DNA of 24,887 bases from a virus. The stretch lies in the IMG/VR virus record IMGVR_UViG_3300036795_000011, positions 1-24,887 of that record. The stretch is one strand, 5' to 3'. A program made the position numbers and the translations under genes. The notes below the pieces were generated by a model. That model did not search any database. It worked only from the letters and a program-made list of their open reading frames with translations, and was not told the DNA's origin. Of this stretch, positions 9,655 to 21,789 are shown piece after piece; the stretch's first letter is position 1; every line of letters starts with the position of its first letter.

Positions 9655-11124
9655 ATGCCTGTTGGCGTTTCCGTCACTACCGATGTGATGCAGCCTTCGG
9701 GCAGCGTCGATACCACTACGTCCGCGCAGTTCTTCGTCGCTGGCCTGACGGAACGCGGTGACACGACCGCGCCGGTGGTCGTCCGGAACATGGCCGAGTA
9801 CGCGGCGCTGCTCGGCGGCCGGGTGACCTACGGTTCGGTGTACGACCAGGCTCAGGCGTATTTCGGTGAGGGCGGCTCGAGGATGATCGTGGCCCGCGCG
9901 GTTGGCACGAGCGCATCGAAGGGCACCGTCACGGCGCCCGACCGAGCGTCCGGCTCGCCGGTTTCGACGTTGACCTTCACCGCTGAGAACGCGGGCGCAT
10001 GGTCGTCCGGCCTACAGCTCGTGGTCAGCGACGGGTTGGTCTCAAACACCGTCAACATCAGCGTCGTGCTGAACGGCGCGCAGGTTGAGATCTACAACAA
10101 TCTCGCCAACCCGGCCGCGGTCGCCACGGCGCTCAACGCCTCAACGTATGTGCGGGCCGCAGATCTCGGCTCGGCGACCGCCGCACCGAACAACAACCCG
10201 GCGGCCGGCACGTACACGCTGTCGGCCGGGTCCGATGACCGCGGCACGATGACCGCGACGACGCTGGTTACGGCGCTCGCGCAGTTCGGCGCTGACCTGG
10301 GGCCGGGCATGGTCGCGATCCCCGGTCAGCCGTACTCGACGGTTGCCGCCGGTATCGCTGCGCACTGCGCCGCGAACCGTCGCGTAGGTGCCGTTGTTGC
10401 CGCGCAAGGCACATCGGTGTCGGCCGCGATCACTGCCGCCCGTTCCCTGCGCACCACGACCGGGTCGGAAGGTGTCGGTTTCTTCTACCCATACGTGACG
10501 ATCCCCGATGGCGCGGGTGGGCAGCGCACGATCAGCCCAGAAGGCTACGCGGCAGGTGTCCGCGCCCGGAGCATTCTCGCGGTCGGCGGCGAGTCCGGTC
10601 CGTGGTTCGGCGAGACAGCCAAAGCACGGTTCGTCACCGGCGCCGAATCGACGCTGTCGACCTCTGACGCTTCATCGCTCGCTGACGGCGCGGTGAACCC
10701 GATCCGGGTGATGCTCGGCGGCGTCCGCCTCTACGACTGGCGTTCGCTGTCATACGACGAGTCGAACTGGCGGTTCCTGAACTACCGGGACCTGATCAAC
10801 GAAGTCGCGTGGCGGGTGTCGCAGCGGATGGAGTCGTTCGTCGGCGCGATCATCGACGGCTCGGGACACCTGTTCTCGCAGATGGAAGCTGCCGCGATCG
10901 GGATCCTCGTCCCGTACACGACCGCTGGTGCGCTGTACGCGCTCACCGACGGCAGCGGTAACCAGATCGACCCCGGCTACCGGGTGATCACCGCGTCGCC
11001 GGTGAACACGCCGACGACGATCGCGGCCGGGCAGGCGAACATCCGCGTCGAAGTCAGACCGTCCCCGGACGCCGAGCTGATCGGGATCACGATCAGCAAA
11101 GCCGCCCTCACCAACACCCTTTAG
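9655..11124 (+). CDS. Tail sheath protein (contractile)
   Basis: The protein is 489 aa, with GAGGAG 7 nt before the ATG. The N-terminus shows the sheath handshake-type start (DTTTSAQFFVAGLTERGDTT, then PVVVRNMAEYAALLGGRVTY). The middle contains a domain that begins with TLTFTAENAGAWSSGLQLVV. The C-terminal domain is the conserved sheath core, with YDESNWRFLNYRDLINEVAW and RVSQRMESFVGAIIDG, ending in IRVEVRPSPDAELIGITISK. This is the strongest sign that the tail is contractile. It should form stacked hexameric rings around the tube and shorten on infection. The tube gene follows after 9 nt, the standard order. Confidence 0.92.
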   Translation: MPVGVSVTTDVMQPSGSVDTTTSAQFFVAGLTERGDTTAPVVVRNMAEYAALLGGRVTYGSVYDQAQAYFGEGGSRMIVARAVGTSASKGTVTAPDRASGSPVSTLTFTAENAGAWSSGLQLVVSDGLVSNTVNISVVLNGAQVEIYNNLANPAAVATALNASTYVRAADLGSATAAPNNNPAAGTYTLSAGSDDRGTMTATTLVTALAQFGADLGPGMVAIPGQPYSTVAAGIAAHCAANRRVGAVVAAQGTSVSAAITAARSLRTTTGSEGVGFFYPYVTIPDGAGGQRTISPEGYAAGVRARSILAVGGESGPWFGETAKARFVTGAESTLSTSDASSLADGAVNPIRVMLGGVRLYDWRSLSYDESNWRFLNYRDLINEVAWRVSQRMESFVGAIIDGSGHLFSQMEAAAIGILVPYTTAGALYALTDGSGNQIDPGYRVITASPVNTPTTIAAGQANIRVEVRPSPDAELIGITISKAALTNTL

Positions 11125-12217: not shown

Positions 12218-14197
12218 ATGACTGACAACGATGTCGTCGTCCGGCTCCTGGTCCGTGATGACGGATCGGTGGAACTGAAACGGTTCCAGTCCCAGGTAGC
12301 TGCTACGAAGGCCGAGGTTGCCGGGCTCGGCGGCGCCGGGTCGTCGCTGGGCAACCTGTTTGACTCGCTGGACGGTAAGACGGGGAACCTGTCGAATCAG
12401 ATGCTCGGGCTCAACCGGAGCCTCGCGTCAGCGTCCGGGACGTTGCGTCACGACCTGCTCTACGGCGTGCGTGACCTGACCCTCGGGCTGACCGCGGCTG
12501 CTGGTGCGGCGACGTATTTCGGGTTGAAGGCTGTCGACTCCTTCCAGCACACGCAAGCAGCGTTCTCGGTTCTGACCGGGTCGATGCAGAATGGCAAGGC
12601 GCTCTACAACCAGTTGATGGCGTTCAACCTGAAGTCGCCGTTCGACATGCAGCCACTCGCCTCAAGCGAACAGACCCTGCTCGGGTTCGGCATCGGCCAG
12701 AAGGCATCGGTCGCTGATCTGAAGGCGATCTCGAACGTCGCCGCGGTGCAGCAGGACCCGAACGAGGCCCTGTCACGGATGGCGCTGGCGATCGGCCAGA
12801 TCAATCAGTCCGGTGTTGTCCGCGGCCAGGACCTCAACCAGCTCGTCCAGGCCGGTTTCCCTGCCTACGGGCTGCTCAGCCAGATCTCGGGCGGGTCGGT
12901 GCAGCAGTTGCGTAAGCAGATGGCGTCCGGTAACGGGATGGACCCGTCGAAGTTCTTGGCTGCGCTCGCGGATCCGAACAACCCGGAACTCAGCAAGTAC
13001 GGCGGCGCCGCGAAGGCGATGAACCAGACGATCTCCGGTCAACTGTCGAACCTGACGACAGAGGTTCGGCAGACCGCGATCAACGCGTTCCACCCGATGG
13101 CCGACGAGCTCATCAAAGAGATGCCGCAACTGACGAAGACGTTGCAGGGGATGACCAAGGAACTCGCCCCAGACATCGCCTCGTTCGGGATGGACATCAT
13201 CAAAGGCGCAGAGCACATCCTGCCGATCCTGACGCCTATCGTCCATTCGCTGCTTCAGGGCATGGACGGGCTCATGCAAGCCGGTGGGCCGTTCCTGCGT
13301 GAGTTGCAGAACGTCGACCCGCAGGTCACGTCGGCGCTCGATGACTTCTTCACGACCCTGGCCGGGGAGGAACCGGAGTTGGCGGGGATCTTCGGTGATC
13401 TGCTGCAGGTGCTGCCGTTGTTCATTACTGATCTCGGTGATCTGCTGGTGCTGGCGGACCCGTTGTTGAAGATGCTCGATACGTTCCTCGGCTTCAGACC
13501 CGTCCAAGGCATCATGGCGGACCTGCTTGTCGGGCTGCTCGCGTACAAGACGCTTGCCGGGCCGATCGAGATGCTCATGAAGTTCGGCACAGCGTTGCGT
13601 GGCGCGGCCGGTGCCGAAACCGCACTTGCGGCTGCTGAGGTCCGTAAGAAGGAAGCCGATGCGCTGCCCGACGTCCAGGGGCCTACTGGCGGCGGACCCG
13701 CCGGTTCGGGTGGGAGCGCCCTTTCTCGGCTCGCCCTGACAGGGATCGGTGCCCGCGAGTTGTTCGCAATGGGTCTAGCTGGCAGCCAACCTGACGTCCG
13801 GAACCCCGGAAGTTATGACATCGCCGGCGGCTCCGCGCACGGCGGTCTCACCCTGTTCGGTACGCCACCGACGACGCTTGCGGGGCAGGAGGCGTTGTTC
13901 CATCAATACAAGGGCAACTCGGCCGCGCTGCAGGACCTTGCTATCAAGTTCCCGTCTGCTGCGAGAGCTCTCGGAATGTCAGGCTCGGGTGGTTTGGGGA
14001 TCACGCCGGCGCTTGTGGCCGCGGCGATCCACAGTGACCCGCGCCTTGGGCGCGTAGTTGGTAAGACCGGATCAACCGTCAACGTTCATGACGGGGCGAT
14101 CACGATCCAGGTGAGTGATTCGAAGAACCCGACCGAGACCGCTCAATTCATCCGTCAAGAGTTGAACAAGTGGATCGAAGAGCAGCAGGACCGTTGA
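12218..14197 (+). CDS. Tape measure protein
   Basis: The protein is 659 aa, with GAGAGGGG about 9 nt before the ATG. Residues about 108-160 carry the tape-measure N-terminal signature: SFQHTQAAFSVLTGSMQNGK, then FNLKSPFDMQPLASSEQTLL and GFG. A hydrophobic segment, GLTAAAGAATYFGLKAV (about 90-106), and another near VQGIMADLLVGLLAY are the usual membrane-seeking parts. The remainder is helical and Gln/Leu-rich, with a Gly-rich linker (GPTGGGPAGSGGSA). It sets tail length and is ejected first into the host envelope. No lytic enzyme domain is fused here. The hub gene starts 1 nt after its stop. Confidence 0.9.
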   Translation: MTDNDVVVRLLVRDDGSVELKRFQSQVAATKAEVAGLGGAGSSLGNLFDSLDGKTGNLSNQMLGLNRSLASASGTLRHDLLYGVRDLTLGLTAAAGAATYFGLKAVDSFQHTQAAFSVLTGSMQNGKALYNQLMAFNLKSPFDMQPLASSEQTLLGFGIGQKASVADLKAISNVAAVQQDPNEALSRMALAIGQINQSGVVRGQDLNQLVQAGFPAYGLLSQISGGSVQQLRKQMASGNGMDPSKFLAALADPNNPELSKYGGAAKAMNQTISGQLSNLTTEVRQTAINAFHPMADELIKEMPQLTKTLQGMTKELAPDIASFGMDIIKGAEHILPILTPIVHSLLQGMDGLMQAGGPFLRELQNVDPQVTSALDDFFTTLAGEEPELAGIFGDLLQVLPLFITDLGDLLVLADPLLKMLDTFLGFRPVQGIMADLLVGLLAYKTLAGPIEMLMKFGTALRGAAGAETALAAAEVRKKEADALPDVQGPTGGGPAGSGGSALSRLALTGIGARELFAMGLAGSQPDVRNPGSYDIAGGSAHGGLTLFGTPPTTLAGQEALFHQYKGNSAALQDLAIKFPSAARALGMSGSGGLGITPALVAAAIHSDPRLGRVVGKTGSTVNVHDGAITIQVSDSKNPTETAQFIRQELNKWIEEQQDR

Positions 14198-14198
14198 G

Positions 14199-16100
14199 AT
14201 GCCGACGCTCAGCGCGACCTCGATAGCGCAGTACGCGTTCACTGTCGGTTTCCGGGGTGAGAGCGTGGTGACTATCACCGCGATCTGCGGTGCCGAGTCG
14301 GGGTTTCAGTACGGGTCGGAGACTGACACCGGCACGGTGTCCGGCCCGGCTCAGATCAACTATTCGGCGCATCCGCAGTACGACCGGGACAAATTGACGA
14401 ACGACCCCAGCTACAACTTGCGGGCCGCTTATACGATCTCCAACGGCGGTAACAACTTCGGTGCGTGGGACACCTACGACTCGCCGCCAGCGCCCAAGGA
14501 CCCCGGCAATGGTCGGTACCGTCAGTTCCTCCGGGTGGCGCGGATCGCCGCGGCGAAGGTCGACACCACCATCACCGCAGCTCCGCTCCCTCAAGGCAAG
14601 GGCAGCACCCCGTATCGGGGGTTCCTGCCGCCGGATAACGAGAAGGCGATCGATCTCACCATCGCCGGCAAGCAGGCACGGTCGGCTCTCGGGTACTCGC
14701 TGGTGGCTGCTGACGTGCAGTTCACGAATACTGAGGCGAGCCAACTCAGCCTGACGTTCGACGACAACGACTTCCTGATCTTGCAGCGGTACCAGTTCAC
14801 GGTCGGACCGACCGGAACGCCGATCGAGTATGCCGACCAACGATGGCGGATCCAGTCCCTTGCCACCCAGCCAACGGACAAGGGTCCTCAGACTGTGATG
14901 GTGTGCCAGCCATCCGGTGTGATGCGGATGAAAGGGCTCACACCGAACCCTGGAAAGAGGATCAGCCCTACCGACTACATGGCGGGGATCGCGCAGGAAG
15001 CCGGTTTGGACTTCGTCGGCGAACCCACCGCGACCCGGCAAGACATCGGACCGAAGAAGATCCCGGATCCCTCCACCGGCCAGAAACGGTATGAGAACGC
15101 CTGGGAAATAGGACAGCGGCTCGCCGCCAATCATGACCTCGTCGCTTATGAGTCCCGCGGGACGTACTACTTCGCGACACCCGCGTTCATCGCCAAGCAG
15201 GCGAAGCTCTGGTACGTGTTCATCGGCAAACTCGACGCCGATTACGATGCGCTCACCGACGCACAGAAGGACAGCGCCACGATCCATGTCGTGGAAGCCA
15301 TCGGCTGGCCGTCGATCGGCACCAAAGCCCAAGGGGTCGGGGTGAAATCCCAACGGACGCTGTCGTGTCAGATCCGCCGCGGGCAGGGCAAGCAGCTCCG
15401 CGCCGGGGACCGGCTGCTGATCGGGGTCGTCCCCCAACTCTCAGGCGGACCACCGCTCGCTGTGACATCCGTTCAGTGGGACCCCACCGACATCGCGGCA
15501 GGCCCAGTCTCCATCGAGGCAGCCGACCTCACCTCATGGGCCAGCCAGTCCACCGACCAAGGTGACGCCACGGCGAAGGACGGCGGACAGACCAGCGGCC
15601 GCGGCATCGCCAAGAAGGGAACCGCGAGCGCGCTCGACTTTGTCACCTTCGCTCTCGCGCAACGCCACGACCACTACCAGTACGGCGCGACACCGTCGCC
15701 GACCGACCCGAACCCAGACGCTGAGGATTGTTCGAGCCTGGTCCAGTGGTCTGCGGCGCAGACGGGGGTGACGATGCCCCGGACATCCGGTGAACAATGG
15801 CAGTTCTGCAAGTCGCTCGAGATCAGTGTTGAGAAGGCATTGAACACTCGCGGCGCCCTGTTGTTCATCGACTCCTCCGACGGGACCCCCGGTGGGGAGC
15901 ACGTCGCGATCAGCCTTGGTAATGGCCGACAGGACATGGCCGCGCACACGTCGCATGCACCGCTGAACAAGCAGGTAGCCGTGTGGACGACCACGGTTAG
16001 CGAGTGGGACCGCGCCGCACTAATCCCGGGGATGAGCTACGGGAGCGGCGGTGTAGTGATCCCTGGCGGCACTGACCGACATGCCGGAACACCCTTCTGA
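14199..16100 (+). CDS. Baseplate hub with N-terminal transglycosylase-like and C-terminal NlpC/P60 domains
   Basis: The protein is 633 aa with three parts. Residues about 8-112 resemble a lytic transglycosylase: ITAICGAESGF with E33 as likely catalytic acid, VSGPAQIN, and NLRAAYTISNGGNNFGAWDT. Residues about 145-450 are beta-rich and look like an XkdQ/gpD-type hub (IDLTIAGKQARSALG, QLSLTFDDNDFLIL, GDRLLIGVVPQLSGG). Residues about 478-600 are an NlpC/P60 peptidase: EDCSSLVQWSAAQTGVTMPR with C511, and GEHVAISLGNG with H568. Together they should dock the spike and cleave both glycan strands and peptide stems during infection. A linker (QGDATAKDGGQTSGRG) precedes the peptidase. The ATG follows the tape-measure stop by 1 nt. 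Domain borders are estimates. Confidence 0.85.
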   Translation: MPTLSATSIAQYAFTVGFRGESVVTITAICGAESGFQYGSETDTGTVSGPAQINYSAHPQYDRDKLTNDPSYNLRAAYTISNGGNNFGAWDTYDSPPAPKDPGNGRYRQFLRVARIAAAKVDTTITAAPLPQGKGSTPYRGFLPPDNEKAIDLTIAGKQARSALGYSLVAADVQFTNTEASQLSLTFDDNDFLILQRYQFTVGPTGTPIEYADQRWRIQSLATQPTDKGPQTVMVCQPSGVMRMKGLTPNPGKRISPTDYMAGIAQEAGLDFVGEPTATRQDIGPKKIPDPSTGQKRYENAWEIGQRLAANHDLVAYESRGTYYFATPAFIAKQAKLWYVFIGKLDADYDALTDAQKDSATIHVVEAIGWPSIGTKAQGVGVKSQRTLSCQIRRGQGKQLRAGDRLLIGVVPQLSGGPPLAVTSVQWDPTDIAAGPVSIEAADLTSWASQSTDQGDATAKDGGQTSGRGIAKKGTASALDFVTFALAQRHDHYQYGATPSPTDPNPDAEDCSSLVQWSAAQTGVTMPRTSGEQWQFCKSLEISVEKALNTRGALLFIDSSDGTPGGEHVAISLGNGRQDMAAHTSHAPLNKQVAVWTTTVSEWDRAALIPGMSYGSGGVVIPGGTDRHAGTPF

Positions 16101-16116
16101 ACGGATGAAGGAAATT

Positions 16117-16572
16117 TCAGCGAACGGTGGCACTCACACGCATATGGATCACGCCGTTCTTGCTTGTCCCTCTCCAAATCGCCGTACACGAGTAGCCGGA
16201 TTGCAGTAGCGCACCGAACGAGTTCTGCGCGGATACTTCGCCAGCAACCGTGTACCGCGTCCGTGTAACTGGATATGCAGTTGTCGAATCGAACTTCGCC
16301 GTGTCGGGTGCCTTCAAGATTTCCTTCACGCGTTCGTGGCAGAGCGTTTCGGCGTTGATCTTGACATCGAACCGAGACGGCTTGTCTAAGGGCCTGCCCT
16401 TCGGGATTGGCACCGGCGCGGTGGCCGTCATAGCGCTGTCGGAATGTGACCCAGCGAAGCCACCCGCTATCGCTAGAAGGACCGCGACCCCCACGACGAT
16501 AAACGGCTTCGGATGCTGTCGGGCCAGACGCCGAAGACGATCCATCAGCGTCGGAGGGTTTGGCTCGCTCAC
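16117..16572 (-). CDS. Antisense single-pass membrane protein (candidate moron)
   Basis: The protein is 151 aa from a GTG, read against the tail operon and convergent with the hub (16 nt apart). Residues 11-22 are basic (DRLRRLARQHPK), 23-41 form one hydrophobic helix (PFIVVGVAVLLAIAGGFAG), so the topology is probably N-in, C-out. The outer domain contains LCHERVKEILKAPDTAKF, YTVAGEVSAQNSFGALLQSG and YSCTAIW; C78 and C129 could form a disulfide. This C-x-x-x-VK-x-x-LK-x-P-x-TAKF...AQNSFGA pattern recurs in bacterial proteins of unknown function. Hand-counted GC is about 56 percent over 16141-16380, lower than neighbours. Function is unknown; a role in superinfection exclusion or host surface change is only inference. 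Confidence 0.75.
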   Translation of the reverse strand: MSEPNPPTLMDRLRRLARQHPKPFIVVGVAVLLAIAGGFAGSHSDSAMTATAPVPIPKGRPLDKPSRFDVKINAETLCHERVKEILKAPDTAKFDSTTAYPVTRTRYTVAGEVSAQNSFGALLQSGYSCTAIWRGTSKNGVIHMRVSATVR

Positions 16573-16607
16573 CCCGGCACCTTATGGCCAAGATGTCCAA
16601 TTGTCAG
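16573..16607 (-). promoter_or_regulatory. Promoter of the antisense membrane-protein gene, probably leaderless
   Basis: On the minus strand CTGACA (16607-16602) is a 5/6 match to the -35 consensus, followed by a 17-nt spacer and TAAGGT (16584-16579), which fits the actinobacterial TANNNT -10. Six bases later comes the GTG start at 16572, so transcription would begin at or next to the start codon and give a leaderless mRNA. AAGG inside the -10 could instead act as a ribosome binding site if transcription starts further upstream. On the plus strand the -35 element overlaps the AGGAG of the next tail gene. Confidence 0.6.
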
Positions 16608-16617
16608 GAGTGCGGCG

Positions 16618-17286
16618 ATGCCATCAGTAGTGGTCTCGATCGTCGCGGCGAGCGCTCAACTCGGCCACAGGCACGCGGTAATCAAATGTGGCGGCGACCG
16701 GATCGTGCTGCCAATCACGTCACCGAACGTCGATCACGGCGGGCTTGCCGGCGACTGGAAGACGGTTGTACGCCCGTTGGACAAGCCTCTGATCGGCATG
16801 GCCGGGCTACAGCTCGCGACCGACAAGGTCACATGCACCATCCAGGCCGACGACGGCAGTTCCGTCGAGTCGACCTTGAAGCGGCTGGTCAGGTTCGCGC
16901 AGGACGCTGACCATCACGTCAGCATCGCGAACTTCGGTTCGTTCGCGGCGGGTCCGTGGCACATCACGGATCTTGATATCGCGAGCGACCGCCGCAGGTT
17001 CGGCACGAACCGGATCACGCGCGCCCAGGTCACGATGACGCTGACCGAATCGACACCTGATCCGGATCCGAAGGCGACCAAGCCGAAGGCGACCAAGTGG
17101 GGTCGGCGTAGCGTGTGGGGAAGCGCCACGATGGTCCGCACCTACATCGTGAAGGCGGGAGACACTCTGCCATCCATCGCGGTGAAGTTCTACGGTCACG
17201 CTGACGACTGGCATTCGATCGCCTTAGCCAACAGCATCACCAATTCACGGTCGATCAAAGTCGGACAGAAACTACTTCTTCCATGA
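16618..17286 (+). CDS. LysM-containing tail/baseplate protein (XkdP-like)
   Basis: The protein is 222 aa from the ATG at 16618, chosen because CAGGAG lies 8 nt upstream; an in-frame ATG at 16513 lies inside the antisense gene and lacks that site. The N-terminal 145 residues are beta-rich (VIKCGGDRIVLPITSPNVDH and GPWHITDLDIASDRRRFGTN). A Lys/Thr/Pro linker (KATKPKATKWGRR) leads to a LysM domain at about 174-222 (TYIVKAGDTLPSIAVKFYG, then IKVGQKLLLP). LysM domains bind N-acetylglucosamine in peptidoglycan. In contractile phages and PBSX-type elements such proteins sit next to the hub and probably anchor or position it. The stop overlaps the next ATG. Confidence 0.85.
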   Translation: MPSVVVSIVAASAQLGHRHAVIKCGGDRIVLPITSPNVDHGGLAGDWKTVVRPLDKPLIGMAGLQLATDKVTCTIQADDGSSVESTLKRLVRFAQDADHHVSIANFGSFAAGPWHITDLDIASDRRRFGTNRITRAQVTMTLTESTPDPDPKATKPKATKWGRRSVWGSATMVRTYIVKAGDTLPSIAVKFYGHADDWHSIALANSITNSRSIKVGQKLLLP

Positions 17287-17960
17287 CGGTCCTGACCCGT
17301 CGCTACCTGCCCGGTCCGGTCGGAGACGACGGTGGGCTGCCCCTCGGGGCGGTGACGCGCCTCGGCCCGCTGTACGTGCTGTATCAGGCGCGTGAGTACG
17401 GCCCGGTGCTCGCGACCAGCTCAGCGATGTCCTCAGCGCTTGCGGTCGGCGACCAGGTACTGGTGGCGTTGTCCGATGTGGACAATGACCGGCTGATCGT
17501 GATCGACAAGATGAGCGCCGACAGCACCACGGCTACACCACCGGCTTACCTGCAGGCGTCGGGCAGTCTCACGGTCACACCGGCGGCGAACCGTCAGACG
17601 GTCAGCTGGACGCTGTCAGCCAGCCACGGTGGCGACGAGTCGATCGACGGTACTGACCACCACATCGTGCATCTGAACCAACCGGGCGTCTATCAGGTCG
17701 ATGTCCGCTACGTGAAGACCTCTGGTGCTACCCCGACGTACACAAGCACTGAGTTCGACTTGACGCTGAACGGCTGCGACACGCTCGCCCACTCGGACAC
17801 TGCCGCGCCAACGCTGCACAGTCTCGCCGATGAGCGCGCATCGTTCCGCCTGATCGTCACCGACAGCGGCTCGTTCACCGTGACGTTGGACTTCGAACCG
17901 ACTGGCGGCCTCGGATCGTTCACCGTCGACGTCGAGCTCGGCGTCGCACGGCTCACCTGA
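17283..17960 (+). CDS. Spike-like baseplate protein (gpV-type OB fold plus beta-sandwich)
   Basis: The protein is 225 aa, with its ATG overlapping the LysM stop. Residues about 25-78 (GPLYVLYQAREYGPVLATSS, then VGDQVLVALSDVDNDRLIVI) have the VGD-x-VLVAL pattern of the OB fold in gpV/gp5-type spikes. Residues about 88-225 look like a jelly-roll or C1q-like sandwich (YLQASGSLTVTPAANRQTVS, HLNQPGVYQVDVRYVKTSG, ASFRLIVTDSGSFTVTLDF). Between LysM protein and gp25 is the usual place for the central spike. It lacks a visible repetitive triple-helix tip or metal-binding end, so it might be a spike with a separate tip protein, or a peripheral baseplate component. Confidence 0.6.
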   Translation: MTVLTRRYLPGPVGDDGGLPLGAVTRLGPLYVLYQAREYGPVLATSSAMSSALAVGDQVLVALSDVDNDRLIVIDKMSADSTTATPPAYLQASGSLTVTPAANRQTVSWTLSASHGGDESIDGTDHHIVHLNQPGVYQVDVRYVKTSGATPTYTSTEFDLTLNGCDTLAHSDTAAPTLHSLADERASFRLIVTDSGSFTVTLDFEPTGGLGSFTVDVELGVARLT

Positions 17961-17973
17961 GAGGACACCCGGA

Positions 17974-18267
17974 ATGGTCGCGTTGATCAGTCACCCGTTC
18001 CGGTTCACAGGCAACGGTCGCATCGCGACAGTCGAGCAAGGCACCGACGAGGCTGCGGCTGAACAGATCGCGATGCTGCTGTTGATCCGCACCGGCGAAC
18101 GGCCACTGTGCCCGGAGTTCGGCGTCACCGACATGGTCGGGCAAGGCCTCGACGCCAGCGAGCTCGAGGCCGCCGTTGCCACGTTCGGGCCCGACGTCGA
18201 CCTACGGGACATCGAGATCACGTCAGTGACCGAGACGACTCAGCAGGTGTCCGTCACATTCGAGTGA
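17974..18267 (+). CDS. Baseplate wedge protein, gp25/GPW family
   Basis: The protein is 97 aa, the standard size, with GAGAGGA upstream of the ATG. It shows the family signature: HPFRFTGNGRIATVEQGTDE, QIAMLLLIRTGERPLCPEFG, and a C-terminal beta strand pair. The LLL-x-R-x-GER-x-x-x-PEFG motif is shared with T4 gp25 and P2 gpW, which start sheath assembly at the baseplate. Its 3' end overlaps by 14 nt a convergent minus-strand gene (18254-18496). Confidence 0.92.
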   Translation: MVALISHPFRFTGNGRIATVEQGTDEAAAEQIAMLLLIRTGERPLCPEFGVTDMVGQGLDASELEAAVATFGPDVDLRDIEITSVTETTQQVSVTFE

Positions 18268-18525: not shown

Positions 18526-19650
18526 ATGATGACGAACCCGGATCTGAGCGCATACAACCCGCTCATCCTGTTCGATCTCGACTCGACCGATCTCGTCAAT
18601 CGCGCGCTCGTCGACCGGACCAGCAAAACACCGGAGTGGAACCCGGTCGACGGCAACGAAGAAATGACGCTGCTTGAGGCGCAGGCTTTGATCGCAGCCG
18701 AGATCATGTACGGAACCAACCGGATCCCGGACGGGACGATCACAGGCGCGCTCAACCTGCTGGGCGTCACGGTCTCACCGGGAGAGCAAGCCACGGCCAG
18801 CGTCACATTCAACCTCTCCGACAGCCTCGGCCACCGCATCCCGGCGGGGACCGTCGTCGCGGTTGCGGTGGGTGATGACCAGGTGCAGTTCACGACCGAC
18901 ACCGATCTGACGGTCGCAATGGGTGACACGTCGGGCACGATCTCGATGACCAGCGTCGACAACACCGCCGAAGCCAACGGGATCACCGCTGGCACGGCGC
19001 TTATCCCGATCAGCGCGATCCCTTACGTCGATACCGCGGTCCTTGCGACCGACGTGTTCGCGGGCGCCGACCCGGAAACCTCCAGCGACTTCATCAACCG
19101 CGGCATCACCCGGTTCGCCCGGCTCAACGACACCCTCGTCAAAGCCGCACACTTCACCGACGAAGCTCTGACCTACTCGCAGGTTGTCCGTGCGACCACG
19201 ATCGAACCGTGGGACTCAGTCGGTGCCGCCGCAACACCGGGCCATGTGACGGTCGCGCTACTCGGGGCGAACGGCGCGCCGTTGTCCTCCGGTGACAAGG
19301 CGACGATCCTCGCCGACCTGCAGGCCAAAGCTCTCATCAACCTGACCCTCCACGTCACCGACCCGACCATCACGACGGTCAACGTCACTGCCTCGCTGCA
19401 CTCGCTGCCCGGTGAGGACACCGCCGCAGTACACGATGCGGTTATCGCGGCGCTCGGCGACTACCTGTCGACCGACACGTGGCCGTGGAACGCGACCGTC
19501 CGGTACAACAAGCTGCTCAACGTCATCGAGAACGTCGACGGCGTCGACTACGTCGACACCCTCACCGTGCCGTCAGGCAACGTGAGCTTGTCCGGGGTAG
19601 CGCCATTGGCGGTTCTCGGTACGGCGACGATCACCGTCACATCATCGTGA
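18526..19650 (+). CDS. Baseplate J-like protein
   Basis: The protein is 374 aa, with two adjacent ATGs (18526, 18529) after GAGGAGGCGAGG; the second start gives slightly better spacing. It shows the gpJ family layout: an N-terminal LLEAQALIAAEIMYGTNRIP helix, the GALNLLGVTVSPGEQATASV entry into a beta domain, HRIPAGTVVAVAVGDDQVQF, then ADPETSSDFINRGITRFARL, and a C-terminal alpha/beta part with GDYLSTDTWPWNATVRYNKL. gpJ proteins form the wedges that connect gp25 to the outer baseplate and fibres. The stop overlaps the gpI start (GTGA). Confidence 0.9.
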   Translation: MMTNPDLSAYNPLILFDLDSTDLVNRALVDRTSKTPEWNPVDGNEEMTLLEAQALIAAEIMYGTNRIPDGTITGALNLLGVTVSPGEQATASVTFNLSDSLGHRIPAGTVVAVAVGDDQVQFTTDTDLTVAMGDTSGTISMTSVDNTAEANGITAGTALIPISAIPYVDTAVLATDVFAGADPETSSDFINRGITRFARLNDTLVKAAHFTDEALTYSQVVRATTIEPWDSVGAAATPGHVTVALLGANGAPLSSGDKATILADLQAKALINLTLHVTDPTITTVNVTASLHSLPGEDTAAVHDAVIAALGDYLSTDTWPWNATVRYNKLLNVIENVDGVDYVDTLTVPSGNVSLSGVAPLAVLGTATITVTSS

Positions 19651-20347: not shown

Positions 20348-20992
20348 ATGGGCGCCACATCGAAGTACGCTCTTCGCTACCCAGCGGGGTCTGACCCGTC
20401 GACTATCGCCACGTACTTTCAGAACCTCGCCTCCGACGTCGACGGTGTCGTGGCGTCGTTCGACCACAGCACTGCGCGCCCCGCTGCGGGCAAGGAAGGC
20501 CGGATCCACCTGCAGCCTTCGGGTGGCAGCGGAACGCCACCGACGAACACGCTGTCGTATGACGATGGCACCGCGTGGCGCGTCCTCGGGGTGCTCGACC
20601 CCACGACCGGACTGATCGTCCCGTCGCTCGCGGGTGCCGCTCATCTCACTACCTATGACCAGACTTTGGTCGACCTCGGCAGTATGGGGTCGTCGAAGAA
20701 CATCGACTTGTCCCTCGGCCGTGAGTTCAAAGGTGTCCTGTCCGCTTCGTCATGCACGCTGGCGTTCACCAATGTCCCGTCGACCGCGAACACGCGGCTC
20801 ACTGTCGGGCTGAAACTCGCTCAGGACTCGACCGGCGCCCGGTCCGTCACTTGGCCCGGTTCGGTGTCGTGGGGGTCACTCAGTGCGCCTGCATTGACTG
20901 CGACACCGTCGAAGTCGGATTGGTTGTCGTTCGTCTCCGACGATGCCGGGTCCACGTGGATCGGCTTCAAAGCGGAGCCGGGTGGCTTCTGA
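20348..20992 (+). CDS. Short tail fibre protein
   Basis: The protein is 214 aa, with AAGGAGA 4 nt before the ATG. The N-terminal YALRYPAGSDPSTIATYFQN motif is common at the base of actinophage fibre or minor tail proteins. It is followed by a short domain with KEGRIHLQPSGGSGTPPTNT and an ATWR-like AWRVLGVLDPTTG. The C-terminal 110 residues are a beta-rich tip: DLGSMGSSKNIDLSLGREFK, then QDSTGARSVTWPGSVSWGS. This tip resembles the C-terminus of the larger fibre at 21842-23461. It probably contributes to host binding. The stop overlaps the next ATG (TGATG). Confidence 0.75.
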   Translation: MGATSKYALRYPAGSDPSTIATYFQNLASDVDGVVASFDHSTARPAAGKEGRIHLQPSGGSGTPPTNTLSYDDGTAWRVLGVLDPTTGLIVPSLAGAAHLTTYDQTLVDLGSMGSSKNIDLSLGREFKGVLSASSCTLAFTNVPSTANTRLTVGLKLAQDSTGARSVTWPGSVSWGSLSAPALTATPSKSDWLSFVSDDAGSTWIGFKAEPGGF

Positions 20993-21789
20993 TGCCAATG
21001 GGTACCGCCCTCGCGGTCTCGCGCAGCACCGGGCTTAACAAGCAGACCTACACGACACCCGGCACGTACTTGTTTACGGTGCCTGCCGGGGTCACGGAGC
21101 TCGTGCTCGATCTGGCAGGCGCCCAAGGTGGAGGCTCAACCGGCGGTATGGGCGGTCGCGTCCAGTGCAAACTACCCGTAACCGGCGGTACGACCCTCGC
21201 TGTGAACGTCGGGGGTCCCGGCGGGCAGCCGGGCTCGACGTACAGCAGTGGTGCGGGTGGTTTCAACGGCGGAGGCAGCGGAGGCGATCCTGCCACTTCT
21301 ACTCCAGCTGGTGGTGGCGGCGGCGCAACCGATATTCGCCGAGGTGGAACCGGACTCGCAAACCGCATTCTTGTTGCCGGCGGTGGCGCCGGCGATGGTG
21401 GCACGATCTACACCGGTTCCGTCACCATATGGGCTGGGGGGGCTGGCGGCGGGCTGATCGGCCAGAACGGGCAAAGCCCCGGCGGATCTCAGTCCGGGAT
21501 CGGCGGAACACAGAGCGCTGGTGGCGCTGGTGGCACAGGTATCGGCGCGTCCGGGACTGCAGGCTCTGCAGGAGTAGGGGGCGACGGGGGCCAGGGAAGC
21601 CAAGGCGACGGCGGCGGCGGCGGCGGCGGCTACTACGGCGGCGGTGGTGGAGTCGCTGGCGGCGGAGGCTCTTATAGCGGCGCCGGTGGTGGGGGTGGTT
21701 CGTCCTACACGGACGGCACCGCGACAAGCGTGACCCACACGACTGGCTACCAGCCCGGCAACGGCTACGCGACGCTCGCATGGTTCTGA
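20992..21789 (+). CDS. Glycine-rich tail tip/receptor-binding protein
   Basis: The protein is 265 aa. The first 60 residues are a beta domain (QTYTTPGTYLFTVPAGVTEL, then VLDLAGAQGGGSTGG), the classic entry of glycine-rich phage proteins in which TPGTY-x-FTVPAGVT precedes the Gly-rich body. The remaining 200 residues are largely Gly with Ser, Thr and Ala, including a run of seven Gly and repeated GGGGG blocks, and the end is a short NGYATLAWF strand. Such Gly-rich regions may form polyglycine-II helix bundles in adhesin tips (known for T-even gp38-type tips; inference here). It sits among fibre genes. A G7 tract and a (GGC)7 run could make the gene length-variable. Confidence 0.75.
   Translation: MPMGTALAVSRSTGLNKQTYTTPGTYLFTVPAGVTELVLDLAGAQGGGSTGGMGGRVQCKLPVTGGTTLAVNVGGPGGQPGSTYSSGAGGFNGGGSGGDPATSTPAGGGGGATDIRRGGTGLANRILVAGGGAGDGGTIYTGSVTIWAGGAGGGLIGQNGQSPGGSQSGIGGTQSAGGAGGTGIGASGTAGSAGVGGDGGQGSQGDGGGGGGGYYGGGGGVAGGGGSYSGAGGGGGSSYTDGTATSVTHTTGYQPGNGYATLAWF
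21436..21442. repeat. G7 homopolymer in the glycine-rich gene
   Basis: Seven consecutive G residues lie in frame as Gly-Gly plus the first base of Ala. Loss or gain of one G would shift the frame of the glycine-rich protein. Confidence 0.8.
21610..21630. repeat. (GGC)7 trinucleotide run in the glycine-rich gene
   Basis: Seven exact GGC units encode residues 207-213, all Gly, in frame. Gain or loss of a unit would change the length of the Gly block without breaking the frame. Confidence 0.85.

Follow-up and report, generated by a model that had tools for sequence, protein, structure and literature searches.

What does the 633-residue product of a tail gene from an uncultured phage do, and does it represent a new lysin architecture, given that a sequence-only reading had taken it for a baseplate hub with a glycan-cleaving domain in front and a peptide-cleaving domain behind? 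The gene lies on IMG/VR virus contig IMGVR_UViG_3300036795_000011, which was analysed over its whole length of 24,887 nt (24.9 kb; hereafter the window), within a myophage structural module ordered as terminase, portal, protease, sheath, tape measure, hub, LysM protein, putative spike, gp25-like protein, and baseplate J (Table 1). The hub reading frame starts with an ATG one base past the tape measure stop codon, a start supported by the conservation of the N-terminus MPTLSA in a related locus (L012). Because the window terminase is 59–61% identical to Rhodococcus, Mycobacterium, and Streptomyces phage terminases, and the J protein ~37% identical to Gordonia phage J, the actinobacterial host group proposed from the letters alone is likely, as judged from relatives. 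The LysM protein expected next to the hub is likewise borne out, by its Pfam match and by its own ATG at 16618 preceded by a Shine-Dalgarno-like CAGGAG.

Table 1. Features of the tail module in the window, with the evidence behind each assignment.
Feature	Coordinates	Strand	Basis
Tail sheath (contractile tail)	9655..11124	+	PHROG 23, 1.8e-41
Tape measure protein, directly upstream of hub gene	12218..14197	+	Pfam TMP_3, 3e-20
Hub gene (633 aa), with lysozyme-like front, gp27-type core, and NlpC/P60 back	14199..16100	+	Architecture shared with 11 further distinct sequences
Lysozyme-superfamily SLT_3 domain, residues 1-124 (Pfam 11-92); E33, putatively catalytic, at 14295-14297	14199..14570	+	Pfam, family profile
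Hub core, residues 149-444	14643..15530	+	tblastn to actinophage tail proteins; family profile vs PDB
NlpC/P60 domain, residues 479-614; C511 at 15729-15731, H568 at 15900-15902, D579/M580 at 15933-15938	15633..16040	+	Pfam, family profile
LysM baseplate protein, LysM C-terminal	16618..17286	+	Pfam LysM, 2.8e-9; homologue beside hub in related loci
Putative spike protein	17283..17960	+	Inferred from position and a weak, below-cut-off match to a beta-sandwich Pfam family
gp25-like baseplate wedge protein	17974..18267	+	Pfam GPW_gp25, 6e-4, below cut-off; synteny conserved
Baseplate J protein	18526..19650	+	Pfam Baseplate_J, 6.6e-22; 48% identity to J of sister phage G001

At the N-terminus, residues 11-92 match SLT_3 (PF18896) with an E-value of 7.8e-11 (42.7 bits vs a curated cut-off of 27), and a family profile built from 16 N-terminal domains matched c-type lysozymes in the PDB at 6e-15; a single-sequence phmmer search of the PDB with window residues 1-128 gave no match. 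The glutamate of the E-S motif (E33-S34) is present in all 74 aligned distinct sequences, window included. At the position of the G-L-x-Q motif, the window reads G-P-A-Q (G49-P50-A51-Q52): column 50 of the alignment holds Leu in 65 of 75 sequences and Pro in the window alone, and Ala at column 51 is again found only in the window among the 75, the usual pair being Leu-Phe/Trp. The column corresponding to Asp52 of hen lysozyme is occupied by Ser48 in the window, by Ser in 61 of 75 sequences, and by Asp in eight. Membership in GH22 (c-type lysozymes) was consequently rejected, as the second carboxylate, Asp52 in hen lysozyme, is replaced by Ser48. Most of the family, window included, lacks this second carboxylate, as lytic transglycosylases do, and may share their mechanism.

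The C-terminal domain matches NLPC_P60 over residues 492-577 (E 1.1e-9, 38.6 bits vs a cut-off of 23), and a profile of 14 C-terminal domains retrieved RipA, CwlO, and the diffocin protein CD1368 from the PDB, the best at 2e-26. Among the distinct aligned sequences, window included, C511 is conserved in 81 of 81, H568 in 80 of 80, and Tyr493 in 81 of 81. The three residues singled out by the sequence-only reading (E33, C511, and H568) do occupy these positions in the 633-aa translation, and catalytic competence is supported for each of them at the level of residue conservation. The third NlpC/P60 residue is less regular: an ungapped alignment places Met580 there in the window, the sole Met among 81 sequences, 71 of which carry a polar residue (Glu 47, His 13, Gln 10, Asn 1). 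The window peptidase may thus be weakened, or Asp579 may replace M580 as third residue should the hairpin ahead of it be shorter by one residue; the loop before this site does vary by one residue in relatives L012 and L096.

These departures raise the question of whether one enzyme domain is now structural or merely wall-binding in the window, either the NlpC/P60 domain with its Met or the lysozyme-like domain with its GPAQ motif binding the wall and cutting it poorly. Such a reading draws on the residues found in the window alone (M580, P50, and A51) and on the match of the NlpC domain to the NCBIfam model of inactive RipD (3.7e-7), though the model of active RipB scores better (9.9e-9). It is weakened by the retention of E33, C511, H568, and Tyr493, and by the possibility that D579 supplies the acid, so that we regard it as unlikely, if worth keeping in mind. 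We lean towards both enzyme domains being active in the window's own copy, which could still be catalytically poor because G49-P50-A51-Q52 is unusual and M580 is unique; across the family of proteins sharing this architecture, both domains most likely act.

Between the two enzymes, residues 135-354 match annotated minor-tail or structural proteins of Gordonia, Brevibacterium, and Arthrobacter phages (tblastn, E down to 1e-9), and the loci around these matches contain contractile-tail or baseplate genes. A profile of 20 hub cores matched PDB 9gtr chain q, a Gp5/VgrG-type hub-spike, with a whole-sequence E-value of 3e-6, the match being made up of one stretch in the first and one in the last part of the hub, individually weak but correctly ordered. 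The only paper we found naming 9GTR describes a Streptomyces coelicolor contractile injection system. PHROG 52 (tail protein) was matched by eight of the 20 hub-core members, the window's own core not being among these. Judged from these profile matches, the hub core is homologous to a solved gp27-type contractile-tail hub. The proposed succession of a lysozyme-like front, hub middle, and NlpC/P60 back therefore holds on the strength of both Pfam matches and the hub-core homology, and the window protein is very probably the baseplate hub of a contractile-tailed actinophage acting as a tri-domain tail lysin.

The order lysozyme–hub–NlpC was found in at least 12 distinct sequences including the window (558-633 aa, one of them split), the other 11 being from uncultured phages. 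These relatives were recovered by scans with domain alignments rather than single sequences; 10 of the 11 were picked up by the NlpC scan, and their first scoring used profiles that predated their discovery. Single-protein scans returned no relatives, whether run with the window hub against viral and genome collections or with the window sheath or J protein against viral contigs, and neither did a hub alignment search of genome contigs; among 50,697 deposited phage records, none matched over 80% of the window hub or of the L110 hub. Each of the 11 other tri-domain loci has LysM and gp25 homologues beside its hub, and 10 have a J homologue, the exception (L101) lying on a contig that ends just past gp25. 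This recurrence bears on whether the window gene could be an endolysin joined to a tail gene by mis-assembly, with no true hub. Proteins with SLT_3 and NlpC domains and no recognised hub do occur in other phages (L147, L160, and L169), but the fusion recurs, in an identical tail-operon position, in 11 further distinct sequences, and the window reading frame runs from 14199 to 16100 without an internal stop or frame break. Given the recurrence, we consider a fused or mis-assembled endolysin refuted for practical purposes, its probability being close to nil.

The nearest whole-phage relative (G001, IMGVR_UViG_3300020181_000030, locus L012) has an identical hub architecture and shares homologous tape measure, LysM, gp25, and J proteins with the window. 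It differs in carrying the LysM gene before the hub, in having the usual GLWQ in its SLT_3 domain, and in a third NlpC residue that aligns to Glu. In a poorly resolved hub-core tree, the window and L012 stand apart from a large group (L098 to L124), with hubs that carry one enzyme or none placed in between, both features with weak support. The hubs of L102 and L103 are truncated by the ends of their contigs and hence cannot be counted as being without an N-terminal lysozyme. Either one gain of this domain followed by losses or several gains would be compatible with such a tree. In one of the 12 tri-domain sequences (L100, 3495-5366), the hub gene is divided, within its lysozyme-coding part, between two in-frame ORFs, and is a broken or mis-sequenced copy.

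The suggestion that this is a new lysin architecture had leaned on the remark that hubs with one enzyme are known, implying that hubs with two are not. This implication does not hold, since both activities are already combined in the diffocin hub-hydrolase CD1368 of Clostridioides difficile (PDB 8v3w) and in gp119 of Rhodococcus phage E3. Like the window protein, CD1368 is a contractile-tail hub that unites a gp27-like domain with glycan-cleaving (transglycosylase) and NlpC/P60 domains on one chain (PMC10996793; review PMC13324602), and its NlpC domain is homologous to that of the window family (family profile, 1.2e-20). It departs from the window in that both enzymes are C-terminal (hub–transglycosylase–NlpC vs SLT_3–hub–NlpC), in that its transglycosylase is MltA-like (Tyr-Asp-Asp) rather than of the lysozyme superfamily, and in being part of a bacteriocin rather than a phage (PMC10996793). 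By analogy, the window hub would work like a CD1368-type bifunctional hub-hydrolase, of which it is not a member by domain order.

E3 gp119 is a single baseplate-annotated protein (806 aa) with SLT_3 (3e-20) and NlpC/P60 (2e-21) domains, encoded by an actinophage that has a sheath and also wedge genes. Unlike in the window protein, both enzyme domains are mid-chain (229-314 and 398-485); its status as a hub comes from annotation and position, as the family hub profile gave no match to it, and a literature search on gp119 found no text. At a further locus (L094), a hub is followed by a stretch weakly similar to Rpf-like transglycosylases (0.0034, below the cut-off) and then by NlpC. What stands of the earlier claim is thus the arrangement: hubs with both activities are known, and what is new is the placing of one enzyme at each end of the hub, together with the recurrence of this layout as a family. 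The same two activities on hubs in other layouts (diffocin, E3, and perhaps L094) suggest repeated acquisition of matched enzyme pairs.

Other hubs carry fewer recognised enzymes. Gordonia GMA6 gp37, ChisanaKitsune gp48, and Arthrobacter Brent gp19 share a homologous hub core and gene neighbourhood with the window but have no N-terminal lysozyme, their single recognised enzyme being a C-terminal NlpC (GMA6 and ChisanaKitsune) or CHAP (Brent) domain, and Cantare gp26 is a hub alone. We also observed that GMA6 (L003, 6013-8736) and ChisanaKitsune (L004, 4545-7266) encode two tandem hub paralogues, the second with NlpC, and that the C-terminal stretch of the first GMA6 paralogue (DSVGLFQQR) looks like a transglycosylase, though Pfam does not match it; in these phages, each of two hubs may carry one member of the enzyme pair. 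In Gordonia phage DalanDe, the C-terminal stretch of the hub encoded at L007, 5914-7239, resembles an M15/LAS-type peptidase (GYGEHSTGRALDV...DHVHIF), again with no Pfam match.

CwlT-type wall hydrolases of conjugative elements, which are secreted and have no hub, also join lysozyme-like and NlpC/P60 domains in a single chain; PDB 4fdy and 4hpe, among the matches of the C-terminal profile, are presumably such enzymes. Rhodococcus tectivirus Toil encodes SLT_3, NlpC, and LysM on separate genes, whereas in the window SLT_3 and NlpC are fused to the hub. This toolset is thus mounted on tail tips or virions in many different arrangements, to which the flanking layout adds another. The Toil arrangement, together with the Gly/Ser/Thr/Pro-rich linkers of the window protein (residues ~125-148 and 448-478), would be compatible with a processed polyprotein from which either enzyme domain, lysozyme or NlpC, is released by cleavage for packaging on its own. 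We consider this improbable, as protease-site evidence is nil and CD1368 has been modelled as a single chain, its hydrolase part built into the cryo-EM structure with the help of AlphaFold2 (PMC10996793).

Taking the window protein as an intact tri-domain hub, we propose that its middle domain most likely assembles as a trimer into a gp27-type ring at the junction of tail tube and spike. In each copy, the N-terminal domain would cut the MurNAc-GlcNAc backbone via E33 and the C-terminal domain the stem peptides via C511 and H568. Sheath contraction would drive the hub to the wall, where three lysozyme-like and three NlpC domains per virion would open a local hole; with glycan strands and peptides both severed, the tube could pass, and the LysM protein encoded next door may anchor the tip to the peptidoglycan. 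Trimer, tail-tip location, activity, and order of cuts are extrapolated from the sequence, which directly shows the gene, its domains, the conserved catalytic residues, and the conserved architecture and synteny. More tentatively, this may be a so far undescribed family of actinophage hubs whose glycan- and peptide-cutters, sitting at the two ends of the chain, would occupy separate places at the tail tip and so make their cuts in a fixed order during contraction, unlike the adjoining lobes of diffocin; we see this as a possibility rather than an expectation. The flanking layout adds to the means by which contractile tails are known to breach thick walls, and the family offers natural domain pairs from actinobacterial phages that can be tested as wall-opening enzymes.

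Beyond the hub, the window order of tape measure, hub, and LysM genes (12218-17286) is unlike that of related loci, where LysM comes before the hub. At this rearranged hub/LysM junction, a minus-strand gene (16117-16572) interrupts the tail operon and encodes a small protein with a hydrophobic segment at its N-terminus. The C-terminal part of its product is 37–38% identical over ~70 aa to minus-strand sites in ~60 Gordonia phages, which adjoin tail assembly chaperone genes. The gene looks like a moron, and one might guess that its product acts at the lysogen surface. Finally, a glycine-rich protein (20752-21789) matches the Pfam ALK/LTK glycine-rich domain at 1.9e-19 and is perhaps part of a tail-fibre tip or adhesin.
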